DNA from: a virus
Length of the DNA: 45,183 bases
Strand: one strand, 5' to 3'
IMG/VR virus record: IMGVR_UViG_3300049484_000153
Coordinates: 1-45,183 of that record
Below, one piece after another: positions 4,919-37,611 of the stretch; the first letter of the stretch is position 1, and each line of letters begins with the position of its first letter. Under the pieces are notes generated by a model, which made no database searches, had not been told where the DNA came from, and was given only the letters and a program-made list of their open reading frames with translations. A program made the translations under genes and the position numbers.

Positions 4919-5095
4919 ATGCCTCAAAAAGAGATGGGAGTCATTCCAGGCTCTCCGCTGGCCAAGTTGTTAGCCCGTCTCGAACGTCACGACCGCAGAC
5001 TCCTTCTTGCCGCTGTTCAGGCTGCACCTGGACCGCGGCGAGAGAAGCTTCAACGCGAGATCAGGAAGCGGCTTTTTGAGTTGGGCATCGAGTGA
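4919..5095 (+). CDS. Small basic helical protein upstream of the carbohydrate cassette
   Basis: A 58-residue gene with a GAAAGGGACGAG ribosome-binding region before its ATG and a stop overlapping the following GTG. The sequence is rich in Arg/Leu (for example LAKLLARLERHDRRLLLAAV) and should form one or two amphipathic helices. It is the first gene of the operon with the glycan-modifying enzymes. Function unknown. Confidence 0.65.
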   Translation: MPQKEMGVIPGSPLAKLLARLERHDRRLLLAAVQAAPGPRREKLQREIRKRLFELGIE

Positions 5096-6057
5096 TCGAC
5101 TTCCTAGCAAAGGAGACACACTTTGTTGATCATCTCGCGCCCGTATGGTTCGCGATGGAAGGATCACGAGGGACGTTCTTCTGTCTCGGCAACGAGACCT
5201 ATGACCACGCTGTCTCACTCGGCATCGAGGCGACCAAAGGTATCACCGTTGGCGGACAAACGGTCGTTGCTTCCATCGGTGACCTGAAGAGCGCTCGAGC
5301 GGTCGAGCGTCGTGTCGCAATCATGGAGCATGGTTGCGGCCTCTCGTATGGAGGTGACCGAACGGCCGGGCTCAACAACTCGTACGCAGGCGGCATTGGA
5401 CGACTCGCTGAGGTCTTCCTTCACCCTGGAGAACACCCTGCGGCGCGAGATCGCGCTCGCTATCCAGAAGCCCGAGTCGAAGTGGTTGGCTCGCCTCGCC
5501 TTGACTCACTCCCGCACCGCGATCACGAACGATGGCCGAGCGAGAAGCCTGTCATCGCGGTGTCATTCCATTGGGACTGCATCATAGCGCCAGAGACACG
5601 ATCCGCGTTCATCCCGTTCAGGCCATACATCCAGTCACTCACGAAGGACTTCACAGTCCTAGGTCATGGGCACCCGCGGATCTTTGACCGTCTCGCTCCA
5701 TGGTACAAGCGGTATGGCATCGAGCCTGTCAGAGACTTTCTTGATGTGTGTCGCCGGGCCGATGTCTACGCAGTAGACAACTCCTCGACCCTCTATGAGT
5801 TCGCATCGACCGGGCGTCCCGTTGTCGTCCTCAACTCTCCGGCCTACCGCAAAGATGTCAACCACGGCCTTCGGTTCTGGGAAGCGGCCACGGTTGGTCC
5901 GCAGGTCGATGATCCACGGAAGTTCCTGGACGCAGCGCGCGAAGCGCTGGCCCAGGGCGCGTCAGATCCTCTCAGAGAGGCCGCGCTCTCAAAAGTGTAC
6001 GCCTACCGGTCTGGAGCAGCGAAGCGCGCAGCGGAGGTCCTAGCGACATGGTCATGA
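5092..6057 (+). CDS. CDP-glycerol glycerophosphotransferase/GT-B-like transferase
   Basis: A 321-residue protein with a GTG start overlapping the previous stop. Features fit the TagF-like/GT-B transferases: a GSPRLD motif (133-138) between two Rossmann-like halves, PVIAVSFHW starting the second half, GHGHPR (191-196), and DNSSTLYEFASTGRPVVVLN (229-248). The last matches the nucleotide-binding D-x-SS-x-x-x-E region of CDP-glycerol glycerophosphotransferases and related glycosyltransferases. It would transfer a sugar or polyol-phosphate from a nucleotide donor to a glycan, DNA base or protein. The neighbouring pyruvyl transferase-like and GT-A genes argue for a common substrate. Donor and acceptor cannot be told from sequence. 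Confidence 0.68.
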   Translation: MIDFLAKETHFVDHLAPVWFAMEGSRGTFFCLGNETYDHAVSLGIEATKGITVGGQTVVASIGDLKSARAVERRVAIMEHGCGLSYGGDRTAGLNNSYAGGIGRLAEVFLHPGEHPAARDRARYPEARVEVVGSPRLDSLPHRDHERWPSEKPVIAVSFHWDCIIAPETRSAFIPFRPYIQSLTKDFTVLGHGHPRIFDRLAPWYKRYGIEPVRDFLDVCRRADVYAVDNSSTLYEFASTGRPVVVLNSPAYRKDVNHGLRFWEAATVGPQVDDPRKFLDAAREALAQGASDPLREAALSKVYAYRSGAAKRAAEVLATWS

Positions 6058-6716
6058 AGACATTCTGGGATCAGAGTCATGACGGAAGCAACTTCGGTGA
6101 TGCCCTGAATGTGGAAGTGTTTCGCAGACTCGCCGGCATCGAACTCGAATGGAGTGAACCAGAAGACGCTGACCTGTTTGGCATTGGGTCCATCGCAGAA
6201 GCTATCCCCAAAGGCTTTCCGGGTATCGTGTTGGGGACAGGCAAGATGTTTGAGGAAAGTGTCATCGATCTCAGTTCAGCTCGAGTGCTAGCGCTGCGTG
6301 GACCCCTCACGGGGCAAAGCGATCTTTACGCTGATCTCGGTCTCCTCGCTTCTGACCTGACACAAACCGTCTCGCGCGATGTCGCCGTTGGATGGCTACC
6401 GCACTATGTCGATGAACGTCTCTACTATGGTGAGCGGATCGACATCCTTGCTGGAGTCGACTCAGTCATCGCTGCCGTTGCACGATGTAAGAGACTTGTC
6501 TCGTCATCATTGCACGGTCTCATCCTTGCCGACGCTCTCGGCATCGAGAACCTCTGGGAACCGCATCACGGTGTCCTCGGGAAGGGGTTCAAGTTCCGGG
6601 ACTATGCCAGTTCCTATGGCGAGACGATCACACCAGGAGTCTGGCGACTCGCTGACCGAGAACAAGTCGTCACGAAGCAACAAGCACTTCGATCCGCATT
6701 GGAGACATTGACATGA
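6048..6716 (+). CDS. Polysaccharide pyruvyl transferase-like protein
   Basis: A 222-residue protein with the family hallmarks: NFGDALN (15-21), GTGK and LRGPLT (83-88), a middle strand ADLGLLASDL (95-104), and SSSLHGLILADALGI (152-166), equivalent to the conserved LHG...ALGIP segment. Family members transfer pyruvate from phosphoenolpyruvate to a sugar, forming a ketal that adds negative charge to cell-wall polymers or exopolysaccharides (CsaB type). It is shorter than most cellular relatives. I use the ATG at 6048, 10 bases after GGAGGT; an ATG at 6054 overlapping the upstream stop is an alternative. It may decorate a virion glycan or the host surface. Confidence 0.75.
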   Translation: MVMKTFWDQSHDGSNFGDALNVEVFRRLAGIELEWSEPEDADLFGIGSIAEAIPKGFPGIVLGTGKMFEESVIDLSSARVLALRGPLTGQSDLYADLGLLASDLTQTVSRDVAVGWLPHYVDERLYYGERIDILAGVDSVIAAVARCKRLVSSSLHGLILADALGIENLWEPHHGVLGKGFKFRDYASSYGETITPGVWRLADREQVVTKQQALRSALETLT

Positions 6717-8245
6717 GAACAGTGATCTTGGTCCCACGCCGCGAAGGTGTCCCGGAGCGTGACTCTGCATGGTTGAAGTGTAAGGAACGGTGGCAAACCA
6801 TCTTCCCTGACATCGAGATCTTCGAAGGTCATCACAATGAAGGCCTATTCAATCGCGCGAAGGCCTTGAACATGGCATCTCAAGCCGCGGGCGACTGGGA
6901 TATGGCGATCATCATTGACTCGGACATCTTTATCGCAGAAGAGCAAGTTCGTGAAGGTCTCCAACGCGCTGCCGAGAGTGGACTTGTGACATGGCCATTC
7001 ACACAATGGAAGGGTCTCACGCAGACCGGCACCGGAGTCATGATGACTCAACTCGTTGGGTGGACTTCCGATCAGGACATCGAGGAACTTGTCGAAAAGA
7101 CTAATCCCGTGTCATGGTCATGCTGCATCATCATGCCTCGGTCAGCCTGGGACACAATTGGTGGCTTCGATGAGAGGTTCGAAGGTTGGGGTTTTGAAGA
7201 CATGGCGTTCCAATCCGCCGCAGTGGGCCTCGTAGGTCACGACAGGATGGCCGGAGCGGTCTATCACCTATGGCATCCGCGATCACCGGGCCTTGGGCAG
7301 GGAGGACTAACGCCCGCTGCGATCTTCAATGCGAGGCTTGGGCGTCGCTATATGGTCGCCGTTCGTCGGGACTACGGAATGACTGATCGTCTCACGTATA
7401 CTGATGCTGCTGAGATGGAGCGAGATATCGCTAATCTCAAACGCGATGATGCCAAGTACTCGATGGCCGCACGACGACTCAAGCTCGGAGACTGGGACAA
7501 CTGGTGGCCTACGCTCGAGGAACTCACAGGTTCTTCTAAGGACTATGCCGTTCAAGAGCGCATCCGGGACACGCAAGTTACGATCATCGTTCACACGGAT
7601 GGGCGTCGCGAGTTCATTGAGAAGAGCATCCCGTCTCTCGAGGCCGCTATCCTCGGGAATGTCGTGAAGCGCGCGATCTATGATGACTCTGGTGATCCGG
7701 CATACAAAGCATGGCTTCGTGAGAAGTTTGAACCGCTCGGGTATTACGTTGTCGGCCCAGACAATCGTGTCGGATACACAAAGTCAATGTCACTTATGTG
7801 GGAGTACCTCACCAACCGGTGTACCTCGCGTTGGGTCTTCCTCGCTGAGGATGACTTCACATATGATGTGCCGGTCGATCTCACTAAGATGTCGAACATT
7901 CTTAGGCGTCATCCGCATCTTCGACAACTCGCACTCCTCCGACATCCGTACTACCCTCGAGAACTCGAGGCTGGTTCGATCATCAAAGAGCATCCCGAAG
8001 ACTATGAGGCTAAGACAGACGGCGAGGACCGTTGGCTTGAGCACCGTCTTTACTTCACGGCGAACCCGTCACTCTTCGAGCGGTCCTTGACATCTCGAGA
8101 ACCGTGGCCTGTCGGTGTTGCTTCGAGTGAGCGAGTCTACACGGATCGTCTCAACAAAGACCCCAACTCAAGAATGGCATATCTCGGTCATGGGGAAGAG
8201 GTGGTGACCCACATCGGATCCTACCGGGCCGGGAAAGACTACTGA
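6713..8245 (+). CDS. Two-domain GT-A glycosyltransferase
   Basis: A 510-residue protein with two apparent GT-A folds. Domain 1 (about 1-225) has the DxD metal motif in IIIDSDIF (D69-D71) and the galactosyltransferase-type segment GGFDERFEGWGFED (150-163), followed by YHLWHPR. Domain 2 (about 285-510) starts a new Rossmann-like strand VTIIVHTDG and contains IYDDSGDP (322-329) and LAEDDFTY (377-384), a GT2-like acidic pair. The two domains could add successive sugars. It is the last gene of the carbohydrate operon; its TGA lies inside the 8243 promoter. The substrate may be a virion protein, host glycan or hydroxymethylated DNA. Confidence 0.78.
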   Translation: MRTVILVPRREGVPERDSAWLKCKERWQTIFPDIEIFEGHHNEGLFNRAKALNMASQAAGDWDMAIIIDSDIFIAEEQVREGLQRAAESGLVTWPFTQWKGLTQTGTGVMMTQLVGWTSDQDIEELVEKTNPVSWSCCIIMPRSAWDTIGGFDERFEGWGFEDMAFQSAAVGLVGHDRMAGAVYHLWHPRSPGLGQGGLTPAAIFNARLGRRYMVAVRRDYGMTDRLTYTDAAEMERDIANLKRDDAKYSMAARRLKLGDWDNWWPTLEELTGSSKDYAVQERIRDTQVTIIVHTDGRREFIEKSIPSLEAAILGNVVKRAIYDDSGDPAYKAWLREKFEPLGYYVVGPDNRVGYTKSMSLMWEYLTNRCTSRWVFLAEDDFTYDVPVDLTKMSNILRRHPHLRQLALLRHPYYPRELEAGSIIKEHPEDYEAKTDGEDRWLEHRLYFTANPSLFERSLTSREPWPVGVASSERVYTDRLNKDPNSRMAYLGHGEEVVTHIGSYRAGKDY

Positions 8246-16880: not shown

Positions 16881-17867
16881 ATGCCCGGCATCGTTGGCAT
16901 GGGGACGACTTTCAATCTCCCCAACTTCGTGGGGGATCTTTTCTCGATCTCTCCCGAGGACACCCCGCTTCTGTCCGCAATCGGCGGACTGACCGGCGGT
17001 CGACCCGCTGTCGACAAGACCTTCGAATGGGAGTTCTACGATCTTCGCGATGCTGACGCCGCACGTCAGCGCGTGGAAGGTGCGGACGCTCCTGTCGCTG
17101 CGGAACGAGTCCGCGGCAACGCTTCCAACGTGGTGGAAGTCCACCAGGAAGCGGTCGAGATGTCGTACACCAAGCTCGCCGTCTCCGCTCGCGGTGGATA
17201 CTCCACCACGGCACGTGGTACCTCCGCCGTTTCTGACGAGTTCGCCTGGCAGACGGACATCGCGCTGAAGCAGATCGCTCGAGACATCGAGCTTGGCTTC
17301 ATCACCGGCACCTACGCCAAGCCCGCTGACAACTCAGCACCCCGTAAGACACGTGGGTTGCTGCAGGCGATCACGACCAACGTCCGCGACATGACGAGCT
17401 CCGTTCCTGATGTCGAGGATATCAACGACATCTTCCAGCTCGCCTACGAGAATGGCGGGATCTTGGAGGGTGAGACCCGAACCCTGATCTGCGGTCCGGC
17501 AATGAAGCGGCATCTCACGAAGCTCTTCATCCGCGACGTCGGCCAGGGCTTCTACCAGCAGTCACGAAGTGTCGGCGGAGTGAGTCTGGCCACCATCGAG
17601 ACGGACTTCGGGACGGCCTCGATCATGGTGGACCGGTACATGCCGGCTGGCATCGTCGTCGCTGCTTCGCTTGAGGAACTCGCTCCTCGGATCCTCGAGA
17701 TCCCGGGTAAGGGCTTCCTGTTCGTTGAGCCGCTCGCGAAGACCGGCGCCTCGGATCGCAGCCAGATCTACGGAGAGATCGGGCTCGAGTACGGGAATGA
17801 GCTGAAGCACGCCAAGCTCATCAACGCCACGACTCCGTACGACACCGTCGGGATCTACGGGTCCTAA
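16881..17867 (+). CDS. Major capsid protein (SU10/DUF5309-like)
   Basis: A 328-residue capsid protein. The opening (N-terminal FVGDLFSISPEDTPLLSAIGG) and FEWEFYDLRDAD match the DUF5309/SU10 type of HK97-fold capsid. Later segments fit the P-domain and A-domain: the long helix FAWQTDIALKQIARDIELGF, then TLICGPAMKRHL and GFLFVEPLAKTG. There is no protease gene or delta domain in front, so the prohead probably depends on the separate scaffold gene. Good AAGGAG site before the ATG. High G+C third positions suggest strong codon optimisation for expression. Confidence 0.9.
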   Translation: MPGIVGMGTTFNLPNFVGDLFSISPEDTPLLSAIGGLTGGRPAVDKTFEWEFYDLRDADAARQRVEGADAPVAAERVRGNASNVVEVHQEAVEMSYTKLAVSARGGYSTTARGTSAVSDEFAWQTDIALKQIARDIELGFITGTYAKPADNSAPRKTRGLLQAITTNVRDMTSSVPDVEDINDIFQLAYENGGILEGETRTLICGPAMKRHLTKLFIRDVGQGFYQQSRSVGGVSLATIETDFGTASIMVDRYMPAGIVVAASLEELAPRILEIPGKGFLFVEPLAKTGASDRSQIYGEIGLEYGNELKHAKLINATTPYDTVGIYGS

Positions 17868-17870
17868 CCG

Positions 17871-18308
17871 ATGGCCGTCACGAAGTTCCTCGCGCGTGAC
17901 CTGACAATCGAAGTTGACGCGGCCGGAAGCGGCGGCGGTTTCGTCGAGATCAAGGGTCTCAACAGCATCACGCACGCTCCTACCTCCACCGACGCGGAGA
18001 CCTCCGACTTCAACTCGGGTGGGCGGAGCGAGCACCTCAAGGCCGAGCGCGGCGACTCGTGGACGTGCGCGGGCTTCACGCTCGAGGACGTTGTCACGGG
18101 CGACCGTGATCCGGGTCAGGCTAGGGTCGAGGCCATCTCGCAGCTCGTGGGACCGGAAGCGCTTACCCGCTTCCGCATCACGAGCCCGGGCGGCAACACG
18201 ATCATCTTCTTCGGCACCGCCGAAGTCACGCTTTCGGGCGGCGGCACCAACGACGCAAGTCAGTGGCAGGCAGTCGTTCGGGCATCCGGGTCGATCACCT
18301 TCAACTGA
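17871..18308 (+). CDS. Major tail tube protein-like
   Basis: A 145-residue beta-rich protein with the tail-tube pattern: an early strand LTIEVDAAG, FVEIKGLNSITHAP, TSDFNSGGRSEHLKAE, and a long FRITSPGGNTIIFFGTAEVTL hairpin near the end. It is the size of lambda gpV-type or TP901-type tube subunits. It is only 3 bases downstream of the capsid gene and is followed by a terminator, so it is expressed in the high-level structural block. This is an unusual place, before the connectors; a capsid decoration protein is the main alternative. Confidence 0.68.
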   Translation: MAVTKFLARDLTIEVDAAGSGGGFVEIKGLNSITHAPTSTDAETSDFNSGGRSEHLKAERGDSWTCAGFTLEDVVTGDRDPGQARVEAISQLVGPEALTRFRITSPGGNTIIFFGTAEVTLSGGGTNDASQWQAVVRASGSITFN

Positions 18309-18403: not shown

Positions 18404-18775
18404 ATGGCAAACGACTATGATACGACGGCGCGAAATGTAGGCGTCGATGCAATCGCCGCTCTCGGTACACGATGGGCCCTTCATACGGGTGATCCGGGCG
18501 CAGCTAACACCGCATCGAACGAGGTTACGGGTGGGTCACCCGCATATGCTCGTAAGGCCGTTGCCTGGAATGCTGCTTCTGGCGGGATTGCGACGCAGAA
18601 CGGCGACGTTGTCATCGATGTTCCTGGTTCAACGACTGTCTCGTGGGTCAGTCTCTGGAATACTGCGGGCACAGTCCGATATCTGAAGAAGGATGTCACG
18701 GACGAAGTCTTCGGCGCACAGGGTACCTACACGATCAAAGGTACAACGACGACTCTCGATCTCAACGACGCATAA
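18404..18775 (+). CDS. Phage surface/tail fibre-like protein
   Basis: A 123-residue protein containing LHTGDPG...NEVTGGSPAYARKAVAW and a later V-S-W-V-S-L strand. This pattern is frequent in small virion proteins of actinobacteriophages annotated as minor tail or fibre proteins. Predicted all-beta. It begins the three-gene surface block after the terminator and may sit on capsid or tail. Host adsorption is possible. Confidence 0.6.
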   Translation: MANDYDTTARNVGVDAIAALGTRWALHTGDPGAANTASNEVTGGSPAYARKAVAWNAASGGIATQNGDVVIDVPGSTTVSWVSLWNTAGTVRYLKKDVTDEVFGAQGTYTIKGTTTTLDLNDA

Positions 18776-19438: not shown

Positions 19439-20689
19439 GTGATCATTCTTCTTCTCTCAGCGACTGCGTATACCAAGTCGGTTGTCGCCGTTGGTGGCGG
19501 TGTCCTTGCAGCGACCAACAAGACAAACCGCAACGCAGCGGTAACATTCACCGGCGGCGGTGTCATTACTGTTGATGGCATTGCAGATGTTCCTCCTGAA
19601 GAACATTTGGCTGACTTCGCCGTCACTGGTGGTGGTGTTGTCACTACATCATCAACAGCAAATCGGGCATCGTCACAGGTTCTCGTTGGTGGTGGGGTTG
19701 CGACTACTACAGGCACAAAGAGTGGGATCTCTAATCAAGGTCTCACTGGTGGCGGCGTACTCGGCATAACTTTAGCGTCATCACGTTCTGCCTCCCATTC
19801 AGGTACTGGCGGAGGTTCACTCTCTGAAGTTCACGCAACGACACGATCATCATCTCAGGCGGTTGTTGGTGGTGGTGTTGCAACGGAAATCCATGTTGCA
19901 TCGAGAGTTTCCTCTCAGGTATTCGCTGGTGGAGGAGTATCGAGCGTTGCAACAACGACAACACGTTCTCGGTCTGGTGTATTCACCGGCGGAGGTGTTA
20001 CTGCTCCAGTCCTAGCGACAACCCGTTTCACAGACGTTATAGACACCGGCGGTGGTGTCCTTACTAAGAGTTCGGTTGCTTCAAGATCCTCCAATCCTGC
20101 TCTAACAGGTGGAGGAGTCACAACACCGGCTATCACATCATCTCGTTCACGATCTGTGGTTGACACGGGTGGCGGTGTTGAAACCACGGCATCTTTGAAG
20201 AATGGGCTTCTATCGACATCATTGACAGGTGGCGGCATTGTATTTGTCGACATCTTCTATCCATCGAATAACATCGATGCTAGTGTCACTGCGACAGGTG
20301 GCGGGTCCTTCACGATTACAGGTTTGGCTGGTCGGAGTTCATCTATTGACTTAGTCGGATCTGGTTCTGGCGTCATCGAATACGGTGTTGGGCACACAAG
20401 TTCAGTGACAGGGTCAGCGGGTGGCGGCCCAACGGTTATCTGGGAAGCGGCTCACTTCGCGATGATGACTGGTACTGGTGCCGGTCTAGTGACGGTACAT
20501 GGGTTTGGGCCGCCTCATACACTTGATCCATTTGCCTCTTCAATCTTTGATACACTCGATCCGTTTACTAGTGGCGCTTCAACACTTGACCCGTTTGATC
20601 GGGGACCGTCAACTTTGTCTCCATTTGAAGTAGGACCTGGAACGCTCTCTCCATTTGAGCAACGGCGCGTACAATCCATTCATGACTGA
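19439..20689 (+). CDS. GGGV-repeat protein, probable fibre or surface adhesin
   Basis: A 416-residue protein almost wholly made of repeats. It has a hydrophobic N-terminus (IILLLSATAY), then 17 units, mostly exactly 20 residues, each with GGG(V) followed by Thr/Val strands and an S-R-S/S-S turn (GGG at residues 19, 39, 64, then every 20 to 264, and 287, 307, 328, 347; the last units read GSGSG, GGGP and GAG). The C-terminus has five 10-11-residue units starting TLDPF or TLSPF (from residue 361). Such regularity suggests a beta-solenoid or a trimeric fibre. Synonymous codons differ between units, so the repeat is old and held at protein level. It overlaps the connector gene by 8 bases. GTG start. 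Confidence 0.75.
   Translation: MIILLLSATAYTKSVVAVGGGVLAATNKTNRNAAVTFTGGGVITVDGIADVPPEEHLADFAVTGGGVVTTSSTANRASSQVLVGGGVATTTGTKSGISNQGLTGGGVLGITLASSRSASHSGTGGGSLSEVHATTRSSSQAVVGGGVATEIHVASRVSSQVFAGGGVSSVATTTTRSRSGVFTGGGVTAPVLATTRFTDVIDTGGGVLTKSSVASRSSNPALTGGGVTTPAITSSRSRSVVDTGGGVETTASLKNGLLSTSLTGGGIVFVDIFYPSNNIDASVTATGGGSFTITGLAGRSSSIDLVGSGSGVIEYGVGHTSSVTGSAGGGPTVIWEAAHFAMMTGTGAGLVTVHGFGPPHTLDPFASSIFDTLDPFTSGASTLDPFDRGPSTLSPFEVGPGTLSPFEQRRVQSIHD
19493..20518 (+). repeat. Coding tandem repeat, about 60-bp period, 17 units
   Basis: Each unit begins with three Gly codons and Val and is 60 bases long, except units 2 (75), 13 (69), 15 (63) and 16 (57). Gly codons vary freely (GGT, GGC, GGA, GGG), so the DNA repeat is much less perfect than the protein repeat. 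Confidence 0.85.
20519..20656 (+). repeat. TLDPF coding repeat, five units of about 30 bp
   Basis: At the end of the GGGV-repeat protein, T-L-D/S-P-F occurs at residues 361, 372, 382, 392 and 402. Between them lie short Gly/Ser linkers. The motif may be a docking peptide for another virion protein. Confidence 0.8.
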
Positions 20690-21083
20690 CACTTTCGCAT
20701 CACCACTCGATCTCTTCTATAGGCTGAGTTCTGGGTACACGTTGCCGTCTGATGCGGAAGCGGATATCTTGCTTGCGAAAGCTTCAGAACTCATTGACTA
20801 CGCCACGATGGGCCGCGCACAACTTGCGTGGACCGATGCGGGTGCACCAGGGTCTGGTGAAGACCCTGACCCAATCCGCGTCGCAATCGCAAAGGCTACA
20901 TGCGATCAGGTCGAGTTCTGGCTTGAGGCGGGCGAGGAACACGATGTCCTTGGGCTTCCAAAGGGATCATCGCTTCAGGGCGGACGTGTTCAGATCCAAC
21001 GTATGCCTGGTCAACTCGGACAACGGGCCAAGAGAACACTCATCCAGGCTGGACTTCTCTGGGCCGGAGCGCGATCCGTATGA
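20682..21083 (+). CDS. Head-tail connector (adaptor, gp6/gp15-like)
   Basis: A 133-residue mainly helical protein: SDAEADILLAKASELIDYATMG, then a helix AIAKATCDQVEFWLEAG and a short end region. This is the signature of the adaptor ring that binds the portal in HK97 and SPP1. I start at the ATG at 20682, which overlaps the end of the repeat gene, rather than at 20655. It is followed by the usual stopper, gp10-like and terminator genes. Confidence 0.72.
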   Translation: MTDTFASPLDLFYRLSSGYTLPSDAEADILLAKASELIDYATMGRAQLAWTDAGAPGSGEDPDPIRVAIAKATCDQVEFWLEAGEEHDVLGLPKGSSLQGGRVQIQRMPGQLGQRAKRTLIQAGLLWAGARSV

Positions 21084-28405: not shown

Positions 28406-28740
28406 CAAGTGTACGCGACTATGCTGTCCTCTATCTTGGTGCCTCAGGAAAGAAGGTTGGAGGTTCTCTGGGAGGCGGTAATGTCTCCACTGGGACAACG
28501 CCTCATATCCTTGATGGTGTAGAACACACGTTGGCTGGGGATAGTACTCGTCTCGATGCATCAACGACTGCTCATGGGCTTCTGCCTAAGTTGTCGGGCG
28601 ACGCAACGACATTCCTCAACGGTCTTGGCGCATTTGCGTCCCTTGGGTCTCTTCCTGTATGGGAGCCAATGATCGCTAGCGACGGTACGGTGATGACCGA
28701 CGGCTTACTCAATCCGATGATGCATGAGGTCACATACTAA
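28402..28740 (+). CDS. Small tail fibre protein
   Basis: A 112-residue protein with a central fibre-like segment, [20 protein letters not shown], then [18 protein letters not shown]; such sequences are common at fibre tails and necks. Coupled by ATGA and TAATG to its neighbours. Likely a fibre or attachment piece of the tail tip. Confidence 0.62.
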
Positions 28741-29795
28741 TGGCTGGACCCACCGTACTGTTCAAGACCGGTATCCATTCTGCTCGACCTGCCTCGGCCG
28801 CCGGGACCGTTCTCTACTTCTGCACGACTCACAACAAGATCGAACTCGACAGTGGCACGTCGTGGTCTGATCTATTCGATCTCACAACCGTTCCTTCTTC
28901 GGACGCTGAACTCACGGCACTCGCCGCCCTAACTTCCGCAGCAGATAAGGTGCCGTACTTCACCGGATCCGGGACTGCGGCGCTCGCCGATCTCACTTCG
29001 TTCGTGCGGACAATCCTTGATGATGTGGATGCGGCGGCTGTACGCACAACGTTGGGTCTCGGGACAGCTGCGACTCAAGCCTCTACTGCATTCGATGCTG
29101 CTGGTGATGCGGCCGCTGTCAAGGGTCTTCCTCTGGCGCTCACAGGCGCCGTCTCCGCCACGCGCTATGCCGGTGGTACGGCGTCCGTCGCTCCAACGAC
29201 AGGGACATTCGCTGTCGGAGACTTCGTTGTCGCTCAGACAGGCTCGATCTTTGTCTGCACAGTCGCTGGGACACCTGGAACATGGGTCAGTATCGTGGCT
29301 GGCGGCATCACTGGTCTCGTCGTCAAAGACGAAGGCTCCACTCTCACGACAGATGCGACTACTCTGGACTTTGTTGGTTCTGGCGTCACCGCTTCAGGTA
29401 CTGGCGCATCGAAGACGATCACTATCCCTGGTGCGGCAGTCTCGGCTATCGAGATCGTCATTGACGGTGGAGGCGTGGCCATTACGACCGGCATCAAAGG
29501 TGATCTGGTCGTTCCCTTTGCGTGCACGATCAACGAAGCAACCATCCTCGCTGACCAATCAGGATCTATCGTCATCGATGTCTGGAAAGACACGTATGCG
29601 AACTATCCTCCAGTTGTGGGTGACTCGATCACGGCTTCTGCAAAGCCGACGATCTCGAGCGCGACTAAGTCTCAAGATGCGACTCTCACTGGATGGACAA
29701 CGAGTGTTTCCGCTGGTGACACCCTCCGGTTCAATGTAGACTCCTGCACGTCGATCACCCGTATCGTGCTCGTCCTGAAGGTTACACGAACCTAA
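28740..29795 (+). CDS. Tail fibre protein
   Basis: A 351-residue protein. The N-terminal region is a small beta domain with a typical neck ([18 protein letters not shown]). Residues about 85-125 have [20 protein letters not shown], a helical coil seen in many phage fibres. The following part is Gly/Ala/Thr-rich, then a C-terminal beta-sandwich-like domain ([20 protein letters not shown] to LVLKVTRT) that could be the receptor-binding tip. Confidence 0.75.
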
Positions 29796-32202: not shown

Positions 32203-33516
32203 ATGGCTCAACTTTGCGGCTGGAAGACCCCCGCAACCGGACTTCGTGAGTGCACCAACGAACGTTGGAAGGTCGGCGCGACATACTGCGCCATCCACGA
32301 GGATGAGTATCGTGCAGCACGTCGCGGCAAGCCCAGTACACCCCGCGCTCCTCGCGTCGTGGTGAACCTGGCGGATCAGAACATTCCCGAGGGACGCACC
32401 CACGCCTACGTCGTGTCCAAGGACCTCCGCGCTCTTTGGGACGCGGCGATGGTCGGAGCGACAAAGCGGCCCGCAGGCAACTTCCTCTTCATCGGTCCTC
32501 CCGGATCGGGCAAGACGGACGGTGCGGAGTCCCTCGCCATCGAGGCTGGGCTCGACTTCACGAAGGTCGATGCCGCTTCGATGACCGACCCCGAGGCGTG
32601 GTTCGGGACCCGCGAGATCGTGGTCCAGGACGGTGTCGCCGTCACGGACTACAAGCCATCGATCTTCGTGGAGTCCATCCAGAAGCCGGGCATCACCTTC
32701 ATCGATGAGATCAACCGATGCCGCGATGAGGGTCGCAACATCATCATCCCGATCATCGACCACACGCGGGCCGTGATGAACCCGCTTACGGGCGACATCA
32801 TCACCCGCCACCCACAGAACTTCATCATCATGGCGGGCAACGTTGGACTCGCCTTCACGGGTACATCGTCCATCGACCCCGCCTTCTGGACTCGCGCCAC
32901 CGTCGTTGAGTTCGAGTACACCGATGAGGCATCCGAACGGTCCATCGTGGAGACCGCGACTGGATGCGATGCCGAGTCGGCATACGTCCTCGTACGCTTT
33001 GCCGTCGACTCCCGGGCTCGCGCCGCCAACGATGACGAGTTCCCCGCGATCTCGACTCGCGAGTTGATCGCCGCCGGTGAGCACATCGCCGATGGGCTCT
33101 CACGGGACCTCGCGGTCAAGTTCAACATCCTCAATCACGCCTCCGGTGAGGGTGGCAACGCCTCGCTACGCAACGAGCTCAACAACATCTGGACCGGTGT
33201 TCGAGCGGCGAAGTTGCCCGAGGCGAACCCCGGCCCAAAAGTCCCAACGCCTGACCAGAGTGGTTGGGTCTGTCCAGTCCATCATGTCGTGAAGACGGTC
33301 CCCGCCGGGGTGTCGACAAAGACAGGTCGCGCATATACCGCCTTCAAGGCGTGCAGCGCTCTAGGTTGCCCGAACACCGAGTCCAACGGGACAGCATGGA
33401 ACGCCGCCGCCATCAAGACAACCTCAGGAGCGGGGCTCCACTGCCAAGACTGCGGCCAGATCAACCCGGTCGGACGCACAACGATCTGCGTCTCCTGCGG
33501 GTCATCTCTTACCTGA
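32203..33516 (+). CDS. MoxR/CobS-type AAA+ ATPase with zinc modules
   Basis: A 437-residue AAA+ protein. Walker A is GPPGSGKT (98-105), Walker B FIDEIN (166-171); the later PQNFIIMAGN and a sensor-like Arg-rich region fit the MoxR/CobS clade. The N-terminus has C5, C17, C29 and H32, and the C-terminus has CPVHH, C-x5-C, and CQDCG...CVSCG, making at least two zinc sites that are unusual for the clade. MoxR proteins work with vWA partners to remodel or insert metal into target proteins; the partner is the next gene. GAGGAG lies before the ATG. It follows the 32099 repeat region. Confidence 0.82.
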   Translation: MAQLCGWKTPATGLRECTNERWKVGATYCAIHEDEYRAARRGKPSTPRAPRVVVNLADQNIPEGRTHAYVVSKDLRALWDAAMVGATKRPAGNFLFIGPPGSGKTDGAESLAIEAGLDFTKVDAASMTDPEAWFGTREIVVQDGVAVTDYKPSIFVESIQKPGITFIDEINRCRDEGRNIIIPIIDHTRAVMNPLTGDIITRHPQNFIIMAGNVGLAFTGTSSIDPAFWTRATVVEFEYTDEASERSIVETATGCDAESAYVLVRFAVDSRARAANDDEFPAISTRELIAAGEHIADGLSRDLAVKFNILNHASGEGGNASLRNELNNIWTGVRAAKLPEANPGPKVPTPDQSGWVCPVHHVVKTVPAGVSTKTGRAYTAFKACSALGCPNTESNGTAWNAAAIKTTSGAGLHCQDCGQINPVGRTTICVSCGSSLT

Positions 33517-33560
33517 AACATGGTATGGACAATCGCTGGTCGCCAGGCGAGAATAGACTT
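33514..33560 (+). promoter_or_regulatory. Sigma70-like phage promoter, copy 3
   Basis: TGAAACAT, then TGGACA at 33526-33531, a 17-base spacer, and GAGAAT at 33549-33554, followed by AGACTT. The -10 box differs from copies 1 and 2 by T to G at position 1, so it should be weaker. It starts inside the MoxR stop codon and reads into the vWA gene. Confidence 0.82.
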
Positions 33561-33595
33561 GGCGATCACGCCTTAGCACCAAGGAGGACATTCCA

Positions 33596-35551
33596 GTGAC
33601 TCTCGCGGATTACGACTTTGACCGCGGCATCTTCGATGACGACGATGACTTCGAGAGCGATGATCTCGAAGACATCGAGGCATCCGACCACTCATACCTG
33701 AAGGGTATGTGGAGCGGGTTCCGCGCAACATCCAACGCCACATTCGATGAAGGCGTTGGTTCTCAACTTGCGCAGGACACCATCCTCGCTCACGGGATGG
33801 TCCAGTCATTCGTCAACGCCTTCGCCCGTGACGGGTACTACGTGGTCACATTCGATCCGCACACCTCGACCGCTGGCACCGACATGCATGCCAAGCACGT
33901 GGCGATCACGCCGGCTCCCATCGCCGATAAGGATCTCACCGCCGAAGAGGCGGGCCTGATCCTCACGGGACTCGCCACTCACGAGATCTCTCATCCGCGC
34001 TATGGGCGCCGAACCGCTCAAGCAGTCGACGCGGCCTTCCCGGGCAATGGCACCGCATCGCGACTCTCGAACCTCCTCGATGACATCCGCATCGAGAAGC
34101 GGTTCATCGCCGACTACCCAGGCTACGCGGGCATCTTCGAACCCACACTCAACTACGTTGGTGCGGCCAGTCTCAAGCGGGACAAGATCCTGGGACTCCG
34201 CAAGCCATCGCTCAACGCTCCCGTCAACCTCGCCATCGGCGCCACGCGATATCCCTCCTTCAATGACTGGTCGGACCCCGCGATCAAGGCGGAGTTCGAC
34301 TGGTGGAATGATTGGGCCGTCCGCGGGTCGCGCGAGGATGCTCCGATCCGCCACGTTGGCTTCATCCGCGAAGCCCTCCAGCACATCGCCGCTCTCAAGG
34401 CACAGCAGAAGAAGGCGCAATCAACCACCGCACCCTCCGCGTCGTCCTCTTCGTCAGGCACGGGTGACAGCGACCCGAGCCCGTCAACACCCTCAGGCGG
34501 CGAGAAGTCAGAAGCCGCACCGCTCGACGATGACACGCTCAACCAGATCACGATGCCCGCTAACTACTATGATCCCGAAGACACGAAGACCGAGGACGAC
34601 ACGAACCCAATGGATGGGTGCTCGGGTTCGGCAGCAGTAGACAAGGCCGCGGCCGAAGGCGATACCACCTATAAGGAGATCGCCGCCCTCAAGAATGAGG
34701 CCGAGAACATCGTTCAGAATGCCCGCAACCAAGAGAGCGATGGACACGGCAACAAGGTCGATGTCAGCAAGTCGCTCCGCGGGATCACGGGTGGTCTTCC
34801 GAAAGCACGCCCATCAGCGGTTGCGGCGAAGTACATTCGCAACGCGATCATGCAGTCCAGGACGGGACACACCGACCACGCGCCGTTCAAGCGTCATGGC
34901 CGCCTCGATCAGCGCGGCATCGCACGCATTGCGAAGGGCGACTACCGGGTCTTCGAGAAGCGGACCGCTCCGTCCGTCGGACGCTTCAACATCTGGGTGA
35001 TGGTCGATGCATCATCCTCCATGGAATGGGGTGGTTGGAGTGAGCAGGCGCCGCTTCAAAATGCAGCCGCCGTTGGTCATGCGATGGCCGTTGCTTCGCA
35101 GACCATCCCGACCGTCAGGATGAGCCTCTGGGCATGGTCCTCGCCATTCCGTTCTGGCGCATACGCCGATGGCGGTGCGGCTCTCGCCTGGAAGACCGGG
35201 ATGAAGACCGACCAGGCACTCCGCCTCTCGACCGTCAAGACCGGCGGGACACCCGACGCGGTCGTCATGGGATGGGCCGGTCGAGCCATCCTCAAGGAGA
35301 CCGTTGGCGAGGAGACACCCGTCATCATCTTCATCAGTGACGGTGCGGGATACGGCGAGATGAATGCCCGCATCGAAGAAGCCCGTAAGGCCGGCGTCGA
35401 GGTCTACGGTGTCTCCTTCTCGGGAGGCATGGATGATGTCGACAGTCGACGGTTTGGGAAGAACAACTACGTTCCGTGGAAGGGGTCCATCGAGGAAACG
35501 GCACGACCACTCGCCACGCTCTTCGCCCGCATCACGGGTATGGCGCGATGA
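33596..35551 (+). CDS. Zincin-like and vWA-domain protein (CobT/MoxR partner)
   Basis: A 651-residue protein. The N-terminus is very acidic (DDDDDFESDDLEDIE). Residues about 110-175 form a zincin-like segment: HEISH (129-133), followed by LLDDIRIEKRF, where a third ligand could sit. A low-complexity Ser/Pro/Asp linker spans about 275-380. The C-terminal vWA domain has the MIDAS D471-x-S-x-S and later VIIFISDGAGYG. Such proteins pair with MoxR/CobS ATPases as metal-chelatase or chaperone complexes. Expressed from the 33514 promoter. Whether it chelates metal, cuts protein or remodels a virion or replication complex is open. Confidence 0.8.
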   Translation: MTLADYDFDRGIFDDDDDFESDDLEDIEASDHSYLKGMWSGFRATSNATFDEGVGSQLAQDTILAHGMVQSFVNAFARDGYYVVTFDPHTSTAGTDMHAKHVAITPAPIADKDLTAEEAGLILTGLATHEISHPRYGRRTAQAVDAAFPGNGTASRLSNLLDDIRIEKRFIADYPGYAGIFEPTLNYVGAASLKRDKILGLRKPSLNAPVNLAIGATRYPSFNDWSDPAIKAEFDWWNDWAVRGSREDAPIRHVGFIREALQHIAALKAQQKKAQSTTAPSASSSSSGTGDSDPSPSTPSGGEKSEAAPLDDDTLNQITMPANYYDPEDTKTEDDTNPMDGCSGSAAVDKAAAEGDTTYKEIAALKNEAENIVQNARNQESDGHGNKVDVSKSLRGITGGLPKARPSAVAAKYIRNAIMQSRTGHTDHAPFKRHGRLDQRGIARIAKGDYRVFEKRTAPSVGRFNIWVMVDASSSMEWGGWSEQAPLQNAAAVGHAMAVASQTIPTVRMSLWAWSSPFRSGAYADGGAALAWKTGMKTDQALRLSTVKTGGTPDAVVMGWAGRAILKETVGEETPVIIFISDGAGYGEMNARIEEARKAGVEVYGVSFSGGMDDVDSRRFGKNNYVPWKGSIEETARPLATLFARITGMAR

Positions 35552-36425: not shown

Positions 36426-36838
36426 CCAGACTCTCGTGGGATCAGTACGCTCTCAACCTCGCGCACGCCGCGGCGACACGCAGTGAGGATCCGTACCATC
36501 AGGTCGGAGTGGCTCTGATGCGCCCTGACCACACCGTAGCAGCGGTCGGATACAACGGAGCGCCGTCGGGCGTCGACATCGACTGGTCAGATCGTGACGC
36601 TCGCCGAGCGCAGGTCATCCATGCGGAAGCGAACGCCCTCCGCTATGTTCGTCCCGGCGAGGTCGGGACGCTCGTGACTACGATGATGCCGTGCGCTAAC
36701 TGCGTGCTTCTGATGTCGTCTTACGGCATCCGTCGAGTCGTCTACACCGGTGAACTGGACCCTGCGGTCTACGACACCACATTCATCCGCGAACTCGCGA
36801 ACGAGTGCGGCATCGAGATCGTCAAGGAGCGCGCATGA
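36422..36838 (+). CDS. dCMP deaminase
   Basis: A 138-residue zinc deaminase. HAE (67-69) holds the zinc ligand and catalytic Glu; PCANC (90-94) holds the other two zinc Cys; YNGAPSG (44-50) is the typical substrate-loop motif. It turns dCMP into dUMP, feeding thymidylate synthesis. Its start and stop both overlap neighbours, so it is co-expressed with the dUTPase-like and hydroxymethylase genes. The combination resembles the T4 pyrimidine route. Confidence 0.9.
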   Translation: MTRLSWDQYALNLAHAAATRSEDPYHQVGVALMRPDHTVAAVGYNGAPSGVDIDWSDRDARRAQVIHAEANALRYVRPGEVGTLVTTMMPCANCVLLMSSYGIRRVVYTGELDPAVYDTTFIRELANECGIEIVKERA

Positions 36839-37611
36839 AAGTCTACCTCGCTGGACCGATGTCCGGCATCAAAAGTTTCAACATCCCCGCGTTCCAGGCC
36901 GCCACCAAAGTCCTTCGAGACAACGGCCACATCGTGATCTCGCCAGTCGAACTCGACGGAGCTCAAGACCGGGCCATTCTTCTACAGAGTGAACACGGTG
37001 ATCACAAAGATCTTCCGCGTCCCTACGAAGAGTACTTGAGCAACGATCACATCACGATCCGTGGTACTCCCGATCTCGATGCCATCGTCTGTCTCCCTGG
37101 GTGGGAGAACTCCTTCGGCGCACTCTCCGAAGTCGATCTCGCCGCGAGCCTCGGCATCCCGTCCTACCCGTACGACTCGGTCTTCGGGATGCGTATCCCG
37201 GACAAGGATGATCTCTACGATGCCGATGGGAAGTTCATCACTCACGCCGACAATCCTCTCCGTCAGCGCACCGTTACCGGGGGCGTGAAGGACAACCGCG
37301 GGAAGTTGCCCGTCGACTTGATCCCGTACGAGGCGCTTCGTGGCGCCGCCGAGGTGCTCGCCTACGGAGCGATCAAGTACAAGCCAAACAACTGGCGTCT
37401 CGGCCTCAAGTGGATGGAGACCTGGTCATCCCTTCAGCGTCACCTATGGGCGTGGAAGGAAGGCGAGGACCTCGACCCCGAGACGGGCAAGTCGCACATC
37501 GACCACGCAATGTGCCAGATGCTCTTCCTGGCGACATACGTCCACGACCCGAACATGGCGCAGTTCGATGATCGGTGGATCAACAGCGATCACAACGAGG
37601 CGAAGGCATGA
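36835..37611 (+). CDS. DUF4406-DUF5664 fusion (nucleotide-metabolism enzyme)
   Basis: A 258-residue protein from ATGA. Residues 1-115 match DUF4406, a nucleoside deoxyribosyltransferase-like fold: KVYLAGPMSG (2-11), DLDAIVCLPGWENSFGALSE and a following Ala/Leu-rich helix. Residues about 150-240 match DUF5664, related to dATP/dGTP diphosphohydrolases of MazG type: KLPVDLIPYEALRGAAEVL, GAIKYKPNNWR, RHLWAWKEGEDLDPETGK. The fusion could process nucleotides for DNA modification, for example removing an unwanted dNTP or producing a modified precursor. No biochemical activity can be fixed from sequence. Confidence 0.75.
   Translation: MKVYLAGPMSGIKSFNIPAFQAATKVLRDNGHIVISPVELDGAQDRAILLQSEHGDHKDLPRPYEEYLSNDHITIRGTPDLDAIVCLPGWENSFGALSEVDLAASLGIPSYPYDSVFGMRIPDKDDLYDADGKFITHADNPLRQRTVTGGVKDNRGKLPVDLIPYEALRGAAEVLAYGAIKYKPNNWRLGLKWMETWSSLQRHLWAWKEGEDLDPETGKSHIDHAMCQMLFLATYVHDPNMAQFDDRWINSDHNEAKA

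Follow-up and report, generated by a model that had tools for sequence, protein, structure and literature searches.

A family of glycine-rich repeat proteins encoded beside a Gp80/whisker-like anchor in metagenomic phages: candidate beta-solenoid fibres

The viral DNA analysed here (the window, an IMG/VR record of 45,183 nucleotides) encodes a protein composed of glycine-rich units of about 20 residues, referred to below as the GGGV protein (Table 1). Such proteins form what is almost certainly a real family. It is a new and unnamed family and not a new kind of machine. The gene is closely associated with that of a small protein related to phage neck whiskers, and it is likely that the GGGV protein is a virion component which acts together with this anchor-like neighbour. 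The arrangement proposed here, with about even chances of being correct, is that of a modular beta-solenoid fibre mounted on the Gp80/whisker-like anchor at the head-tail junction. These observations supply a fold and a partner for a repeat family missing from Pfam and from the PHROGs.

Table 1. Positions of the features discussed, numbered along the window
Feature	Position	Strand	Remarks
Three glycosyltransferase-like genes	5092..8245	+	Upstream of the portal gene; possible modifiers (speculative)
Major capsid protein	16881..17867	+	SU10_MCP, phrog_1328
Putative major tail protein	17871..18308	+	phrog_3884; left boundary of the insertion
Anchor-like protein, 123 aa (MANDYD...)	18404..18775	+	Pfam Gp80 'Podophage GP4 fiber I', phrog_240
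Middle cassette protein, 213 aa	18779..19420	+	L249 homolog 60% identical, in the corresponding place
GGGV-repeat protein	19439..20689	+	GTG start, 416 aa, begins MIILLLSATAYTK; predicted beta-solenoid with a low-confidence C-terminal tail
Repeat units, ~17 of ~20 residues	19493..20509	+	15 GGG plus GSGSG and GTGAG
C-terminal tail, five TL[DS]PF	20519..20686	+	Spacing 10-11 residues; low pLDDT
Head-tail adaptor gene	20682..21083	+	Next after the GGGV gene; listed ORF start TTG 20655

The 15 GGG motifs of the protein are separated successively by 20, 25, 20 (ten times), 23 and 41 residues. Of two degenerate units, one (GSGSG, at 307) falls in the 41-residue gap and the other (GTGAG, at 345) comes after it. 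The original prediction of 17 units of 20 residues is therefore fair as to number, the two degenerate units included, but not as to a strict period, since 11 of the 14 gaps are exactly 20. The autocorrelation of residues at lag 20 nevertheless reaches 0.275 versus a maximum of 0.159 in 500 shuffled sequences. The plan of the unit is a GGG corner, a seven-residue strand, a T-A/G-R corner and another seven-residue strand. The S-R-S turns that had been described agree with an arginine found at unit position 13, with serine, threonine or asparagine as neighbours, in 9 of 11 regular units that were compared. The TLDPF tail is also present and comprises three TLDPF and two TLSPF motifs with spacings of 11, 10, 10 and 10. 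In the two strands, small residues make up 0.83 and 0.77 of even positions versus 0.61 and 0.52 of odd positions, an alternation expected of a thin two-sided solenoid.

The pattern is maintained at the level of the protein. Glycine codons are mixed (GGT 33, GGC 19, GGA 10, GGG 8) and the units share 53% identity at codon positions 1 and 2 versus 31% at position 3, with a mean identity of 39% between units in the protein. The greater similarity of the first two positions implies that there has been no recent DNA duplication, and agrees with the proposal that glycine codons vary while selection keeps the protein pattern. A DNA-level satellite was rejected, as the units are conserved as protein and so little at the third position. 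Translation of the minus strand is interrupted by stops all along the ORF.

Structure was predicted with AlphaFold2 as a single chain, the window protein being aligned with 17 relatives in shallow alignments of related repeats. The model has a mean pLDDT of 63.9, rising to about 80 at residues 80-220, and each GGG breaks the strands; the TLDPF tail lies mostly under 45. A second model, that of the relative in contig L249 (mean pLDDT 70.3), shows the same plan with a tail of short strands. Overall confidence is moderate, with values of about 75-85 over the regular units. Both models place one coil every 20 residues and both align with known solenoids, which, with the alternation of small residues, makes the predicted beta-solenoid fold, as first suggested, likely. 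Two other fibre architectures were discarded. A fibritin-type coiled-coil whisker would require helix, which is absent from both models, and a collagen-like fibre is at odds with a period of 20 and one GGG per unit instead of G-X-Y, and with the lack of any Pfam match.

A Foldseek survey of the PDB returned no significant match for either model (best E 1.1 and 0.4), and among viral models it retrieved uncharacterised phage proteins with probabilities up to 1.00 and E values of 0.01 or worse. With VIA-align 2 the top ranks for both models are solenoids, although Z-scores are inflated among repeat folds. The highest belong to curli CsgA (8c50; Z 26.1 and 20.2), also a stack of coils of two short strands. 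However, the superposition is loose (about 9 A rmsd, 6-7% identity), the GGGV protein has no curlin repeat match in Pfam at E<=1, and no curli secretion genes were seen. The beta-helices of the autotransporters TibA and antigen 43 are similarly shaped (Z 15.5-17.9), but these are bacterial proteins of other sequence and the GGGV protein lacks an autotransporter domain. The best local fit, for the moderate-confidence L249 model, is to the DUF2807 structures 3jx8 and 3ljy (PF10988, 'head GIN domain'; Z 15.8 and 15.3, rmsd 2.3-2.4 A over ~180 residues). One relative, L034, falls exactly at the Pfam cut-off for DUF2807 (24.2 bits), whereas DUF2807 is not matched by the window protein at E<=1. DUF2807 proteins are mostly bacterial and are not known to have a regular GGGV unit of 20 residues.

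The impression that the protein matches no familiar family was borne out, in that it has no match in Pfam (nothing at E<=1), in PHROG or among PDB sequences. Nor was any sequence match found in cultured phages; tblastn with the window protein and that of L123 retrieved none, although the low-complexity filter may mask weak matches. No relative was found by searching with the window protein sequence, because the repeat is too diverged. A spaced pattern at DNA level, built to capture three GGG[hydrophobic] units, recovered the family instead, along with many chance matches. This search for GGGV periodicity in metagenomic phages, advocated in the original prediction, showed that some 23 phage contigs of IMG/VR encode the diverged repeat, and the pooled unit reads GGG-V-A-T-x-S-x-T-T-A-R-x-x-A-x-T-A-T. 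When the repeat profile was applied to pattern matches in bacterial genome contigs, 0 of 120 held the repeat family. Relaxing the pattern to two units brought in another 45 contigs, of which none carries a GGGV family member or a neighbour of the type encoded at 18404. Pattern matches that consisted of LRR-like GGGL repeats or poly-GGGV stretches were excluded from the family. A literature search for a 20-residue glycine-rich phage fibre repeat returned no paper.

Regions outside the repeats vary within the family. The N-terminal part may be a minor tail protein domain (phrog_2106, in L042 and L101), another domain, or almost nothing (the window and L249). C-terminal parts vary as well. L249 and L023 have short repeats about 10 residues apart, resembling TLDPF in the window, whereas the repeats of L109 and L128 are joined to a complete tail terminator (phrog_17840, E 3.5e-15 and 1.8e-14, respectively). 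Judged from these sequences, the TLDPF tail is the local form of a C-terminal tail that varies among relatives. Other repeats were encountered in the same material. Five phage contigs (L030, L035, L051, L058 and L094) contain near-identical LRR-like repeats of 20-21 residues, such as ITALPDNLTVGGGLDL. In some of these contigs stretches are frame-shifted, and the repeats are unrelated to the GGGV family. A different glycine-rich repeat protein, with units such as GGGQAVGVPGGTKV and a short C-terminal xVRLD repeat, is encoded at L252:3-1427 and scores marginally on the GGGV profile.

The gene two places upstream of the GGGV gene is conserved. Its product passes the cut-off of the Gp80 family (PF23140) with 33.3 bits versus 27, and Gp80 is matched by all 27 of the anchor neighbours aligned. 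A profile of these proteins recognises solved structures (9c39_K, E 6.4e-6; 9mt4_I, 1.7e-5; 8jou_a, 7.7e-4). The first is the FDI99_gp126 chain of 9C39, the neck of Shigella phage Sf14; according to PMC11821841, this protein (gp31) is listed as a whisker and was detected by mass spectrometry. On profile evidence, the window anchor is homologous to this neck whisker protein. For phages DEV and GP4, published models show the N-terminal barrels of fibres forming a collar of 15-fold symmetry on the tail adaptor (PMC10925440). Membership of Gp80 and phrog_240, together with fibre I of Ralstonia phage GP4 and Sf14 gp31, is however that of the neighbour and not of the GGGV protein, and no solenoid partner figures in the available portion of the description of gp31 (PMC11821841), whereas the window neighbour has a GGGV gene downstream. 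Cultured phages contain only distant relatives of the anchor, so the pair is known here from metagenomic contigs only; a search of 396 genomes from one actinobacterial phylum gave just four distant matches and no close relative, and thus pointed to no cultured host.

The two genes are strongly linked. A search with the anchor alone identified 25 loci. In 21 of them a GGGV gene follows at a distance of 4-2137 nt, often 4 nt, a count which is not fully independent since the repeat profile was partly built from these same contigs. In the other four the contig stops within 156-997 nt. Two contigs reached via the anchor alone, L265 and L268, still score on the repeat profile. In the converse direction, an anchor is present in 21 of 24 GGGV contigs, the exceptions being L128, whose 5' end is cut, and the marginal members L022 and L252. 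This linkage predicts a fibre of two or three proteins and provides a marker by which annotators can spot the cassette in metagenomic phages.

The gene content of the window is of siphophage type and includes portal, scaffold, SU10-type capsid, putative major tail, adaptor, connector, tape measure and tail-fibre genes. GGGV comes third in a trio (18404, 18779 and 19439) flanked by the putative tail protein and adaptor genes, among the head-neck genes and distant from those of the tail tip. The product of the middle gene has no match in PHROG or Pfam. The adaptor gene probably starts at the ATG at 20682, so that its beginning and the GGGV stop share an overlap of 8 nt, which suggests co-translation. 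Relatives without the cassette at this site were sought with the window capsid protein. In the closest, L002 (85%), the site is empty; in L003 (70%) and L004 (67%) other genes occupy it, including, in L003, a homolog of the window Glyphos_transf gene at 5092; and the capsid and adaptor genes of Propionibacterium, Mycobacterium and Dulem relatives are separated by no more than a single tiny ORF. The three genes thus occupy a variable slot. As to gene order, the phrog_3884 putative tail protein directly follows the capsid gene in the window and in L002-L004, unlike the Propionibacterium and Mycobacterium relatives, where the annotated tail protein comes after the head-tail connectors. The cassette itself is found with three capsid families, phrog_1328 (window), phrog_10 (L249 and L055) and phrog_267 (L042), while the anchor remains 65-92% identical. 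Between L249 and the window, identity is 76% for the anchor, 60% for the middle gene product and 34% for the GGGV protein. That it accompanies several capsid families suggests a swapping of surface fibres as modules carrying their own anchor. A small phrog_1084 gene directly after the GGGV gene in several phages (L083:1-300, L118:10808-11182 and L249:3772-4092) may also belong to the cassette.

It is proposed that some 17 units stack into a thin rod, one unit per coil, in which the GGG and T-A/G-R corners would join the two strands, with small residues inside and variable residues outside. A beta-solenoid rises ~0.48 nm per coil, and 17 coils would give a rod of about 8 nm, its end formed by a flexible tail in which short motifs recur (TLDPF in the window). 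The anchor probably mounts this fibre at the neck or tail adaptor, and the rod probably projects outward, touching the host surface weakly and multivalently or acting as a spacer for other fibres. The GGGV protein is probably a swappable surface fibre contacting the host; the odds of an adhesive role are put at a little less than even. Its presence in the virion, like its stoichiometry and ligand, is something we infer, the Gp80/whisker-like neighbour and the tail-terminator fusions giving indirect support to a role as virion fibre. By description, a comparable system occurs in Anabaena phage A-1(L), whose pentadecameric neck bears a fibre (gp80-gp82) that is likewise encoded by several genes and built of repeated elements (PMC10966104). 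However, its repeats are separate trimeric beads, whereas the GGGV units belong to a single solenoid chain.

The point of attachment could be placed elsewhere. The whisker homology of the anchor and the fusions to tail terminators favour the neck, a location that is nonetheless about as probable as all others together. The cassette might merely be located in the head-neck block and encode a tail-tip or side-tail fibre, a minor tail or receptor-binding accessory. In Gordonia phages the distant anchor homologs sit among minor tail protein genes and, with the minor tail domain of two relatives, this gene order leaves the tail tip as a serious if unlikely alternative; GP4 fibre I, the namesake of the Pfam family, is a tail fibre according to a title cited in PMC10925440. 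On the other hand, the window already has a separate tail-fibre gene in its tail-tip region (28740-29795), the nearest structural match of the anchor is a neck whisker, and the terminator fusions point away from the tip. Decoration of the capsid by a fibre on the head surface is less probable still. It would fit the 'head protein' label of phrog_240, the place of the window gene after the capsid and tail-protein genes, and that of the L249 cassette between the portal and capsid genes, but a shared docking site on capsids of three families is difficult to reconcile with so conserved an anchor.

A further proposal concerns function: the solenoid might be mainly a glycan carrier, its outward serines and threonines being modified by phage-encoded glycosyltransferases into a brush by which the virion would be shielded or tethered. 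The three consecutive genes at 5092..8245 match Glyphos_transf, polysaccharide pyruvyl transferase and a galactosyltransferase domain, weakly to moderately well, and homologs lie near the GGGV gene in L101, L123, L249, L256/L027, L023 and L055 (partial stretches); in L101 the adjoining gene is itself a Glyphos_transf. This proximity in several phages may point to glycosylation. Moreover, the L249 model aligns with hyper-glycosylated TibA (4q1q, Z 17.9), and mycobacteriophage capsid proteins have been reported to bear glycans, in work cited in PMC11256854. Many other GGGV stretches, also partial, show no transferase homolog, however; the enzymes may target other virion proteins or host glycans, and richness in serine and threonine is common among fibres. 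Glycan carriage as the main role is accordingly improbable. Equally improbable is the composite picture of a mobile cassette, exchanged across capsid types, in which an unnamed solenoid fibre on a conserved Gp80-like anchor forms a glycan-bearing, tunable neck fibre. If it were glycosylated, the GGGV protein would tie phage transferases to a defined acceptor.

Two other regions of the window deserve mention. At 32203-35551, a CbbQ/NorQ-type AAA ATPase gene is followed by that of a 651-residue protein with no Pfam match, possibly a MoxR/CbbQ-type pair. At 36805-37611, adjoining the thymidylate synthase gene, a single ORF combines DUF4406 with the N-terminal domain of a dATP/dGTP diphosphohydrolase.
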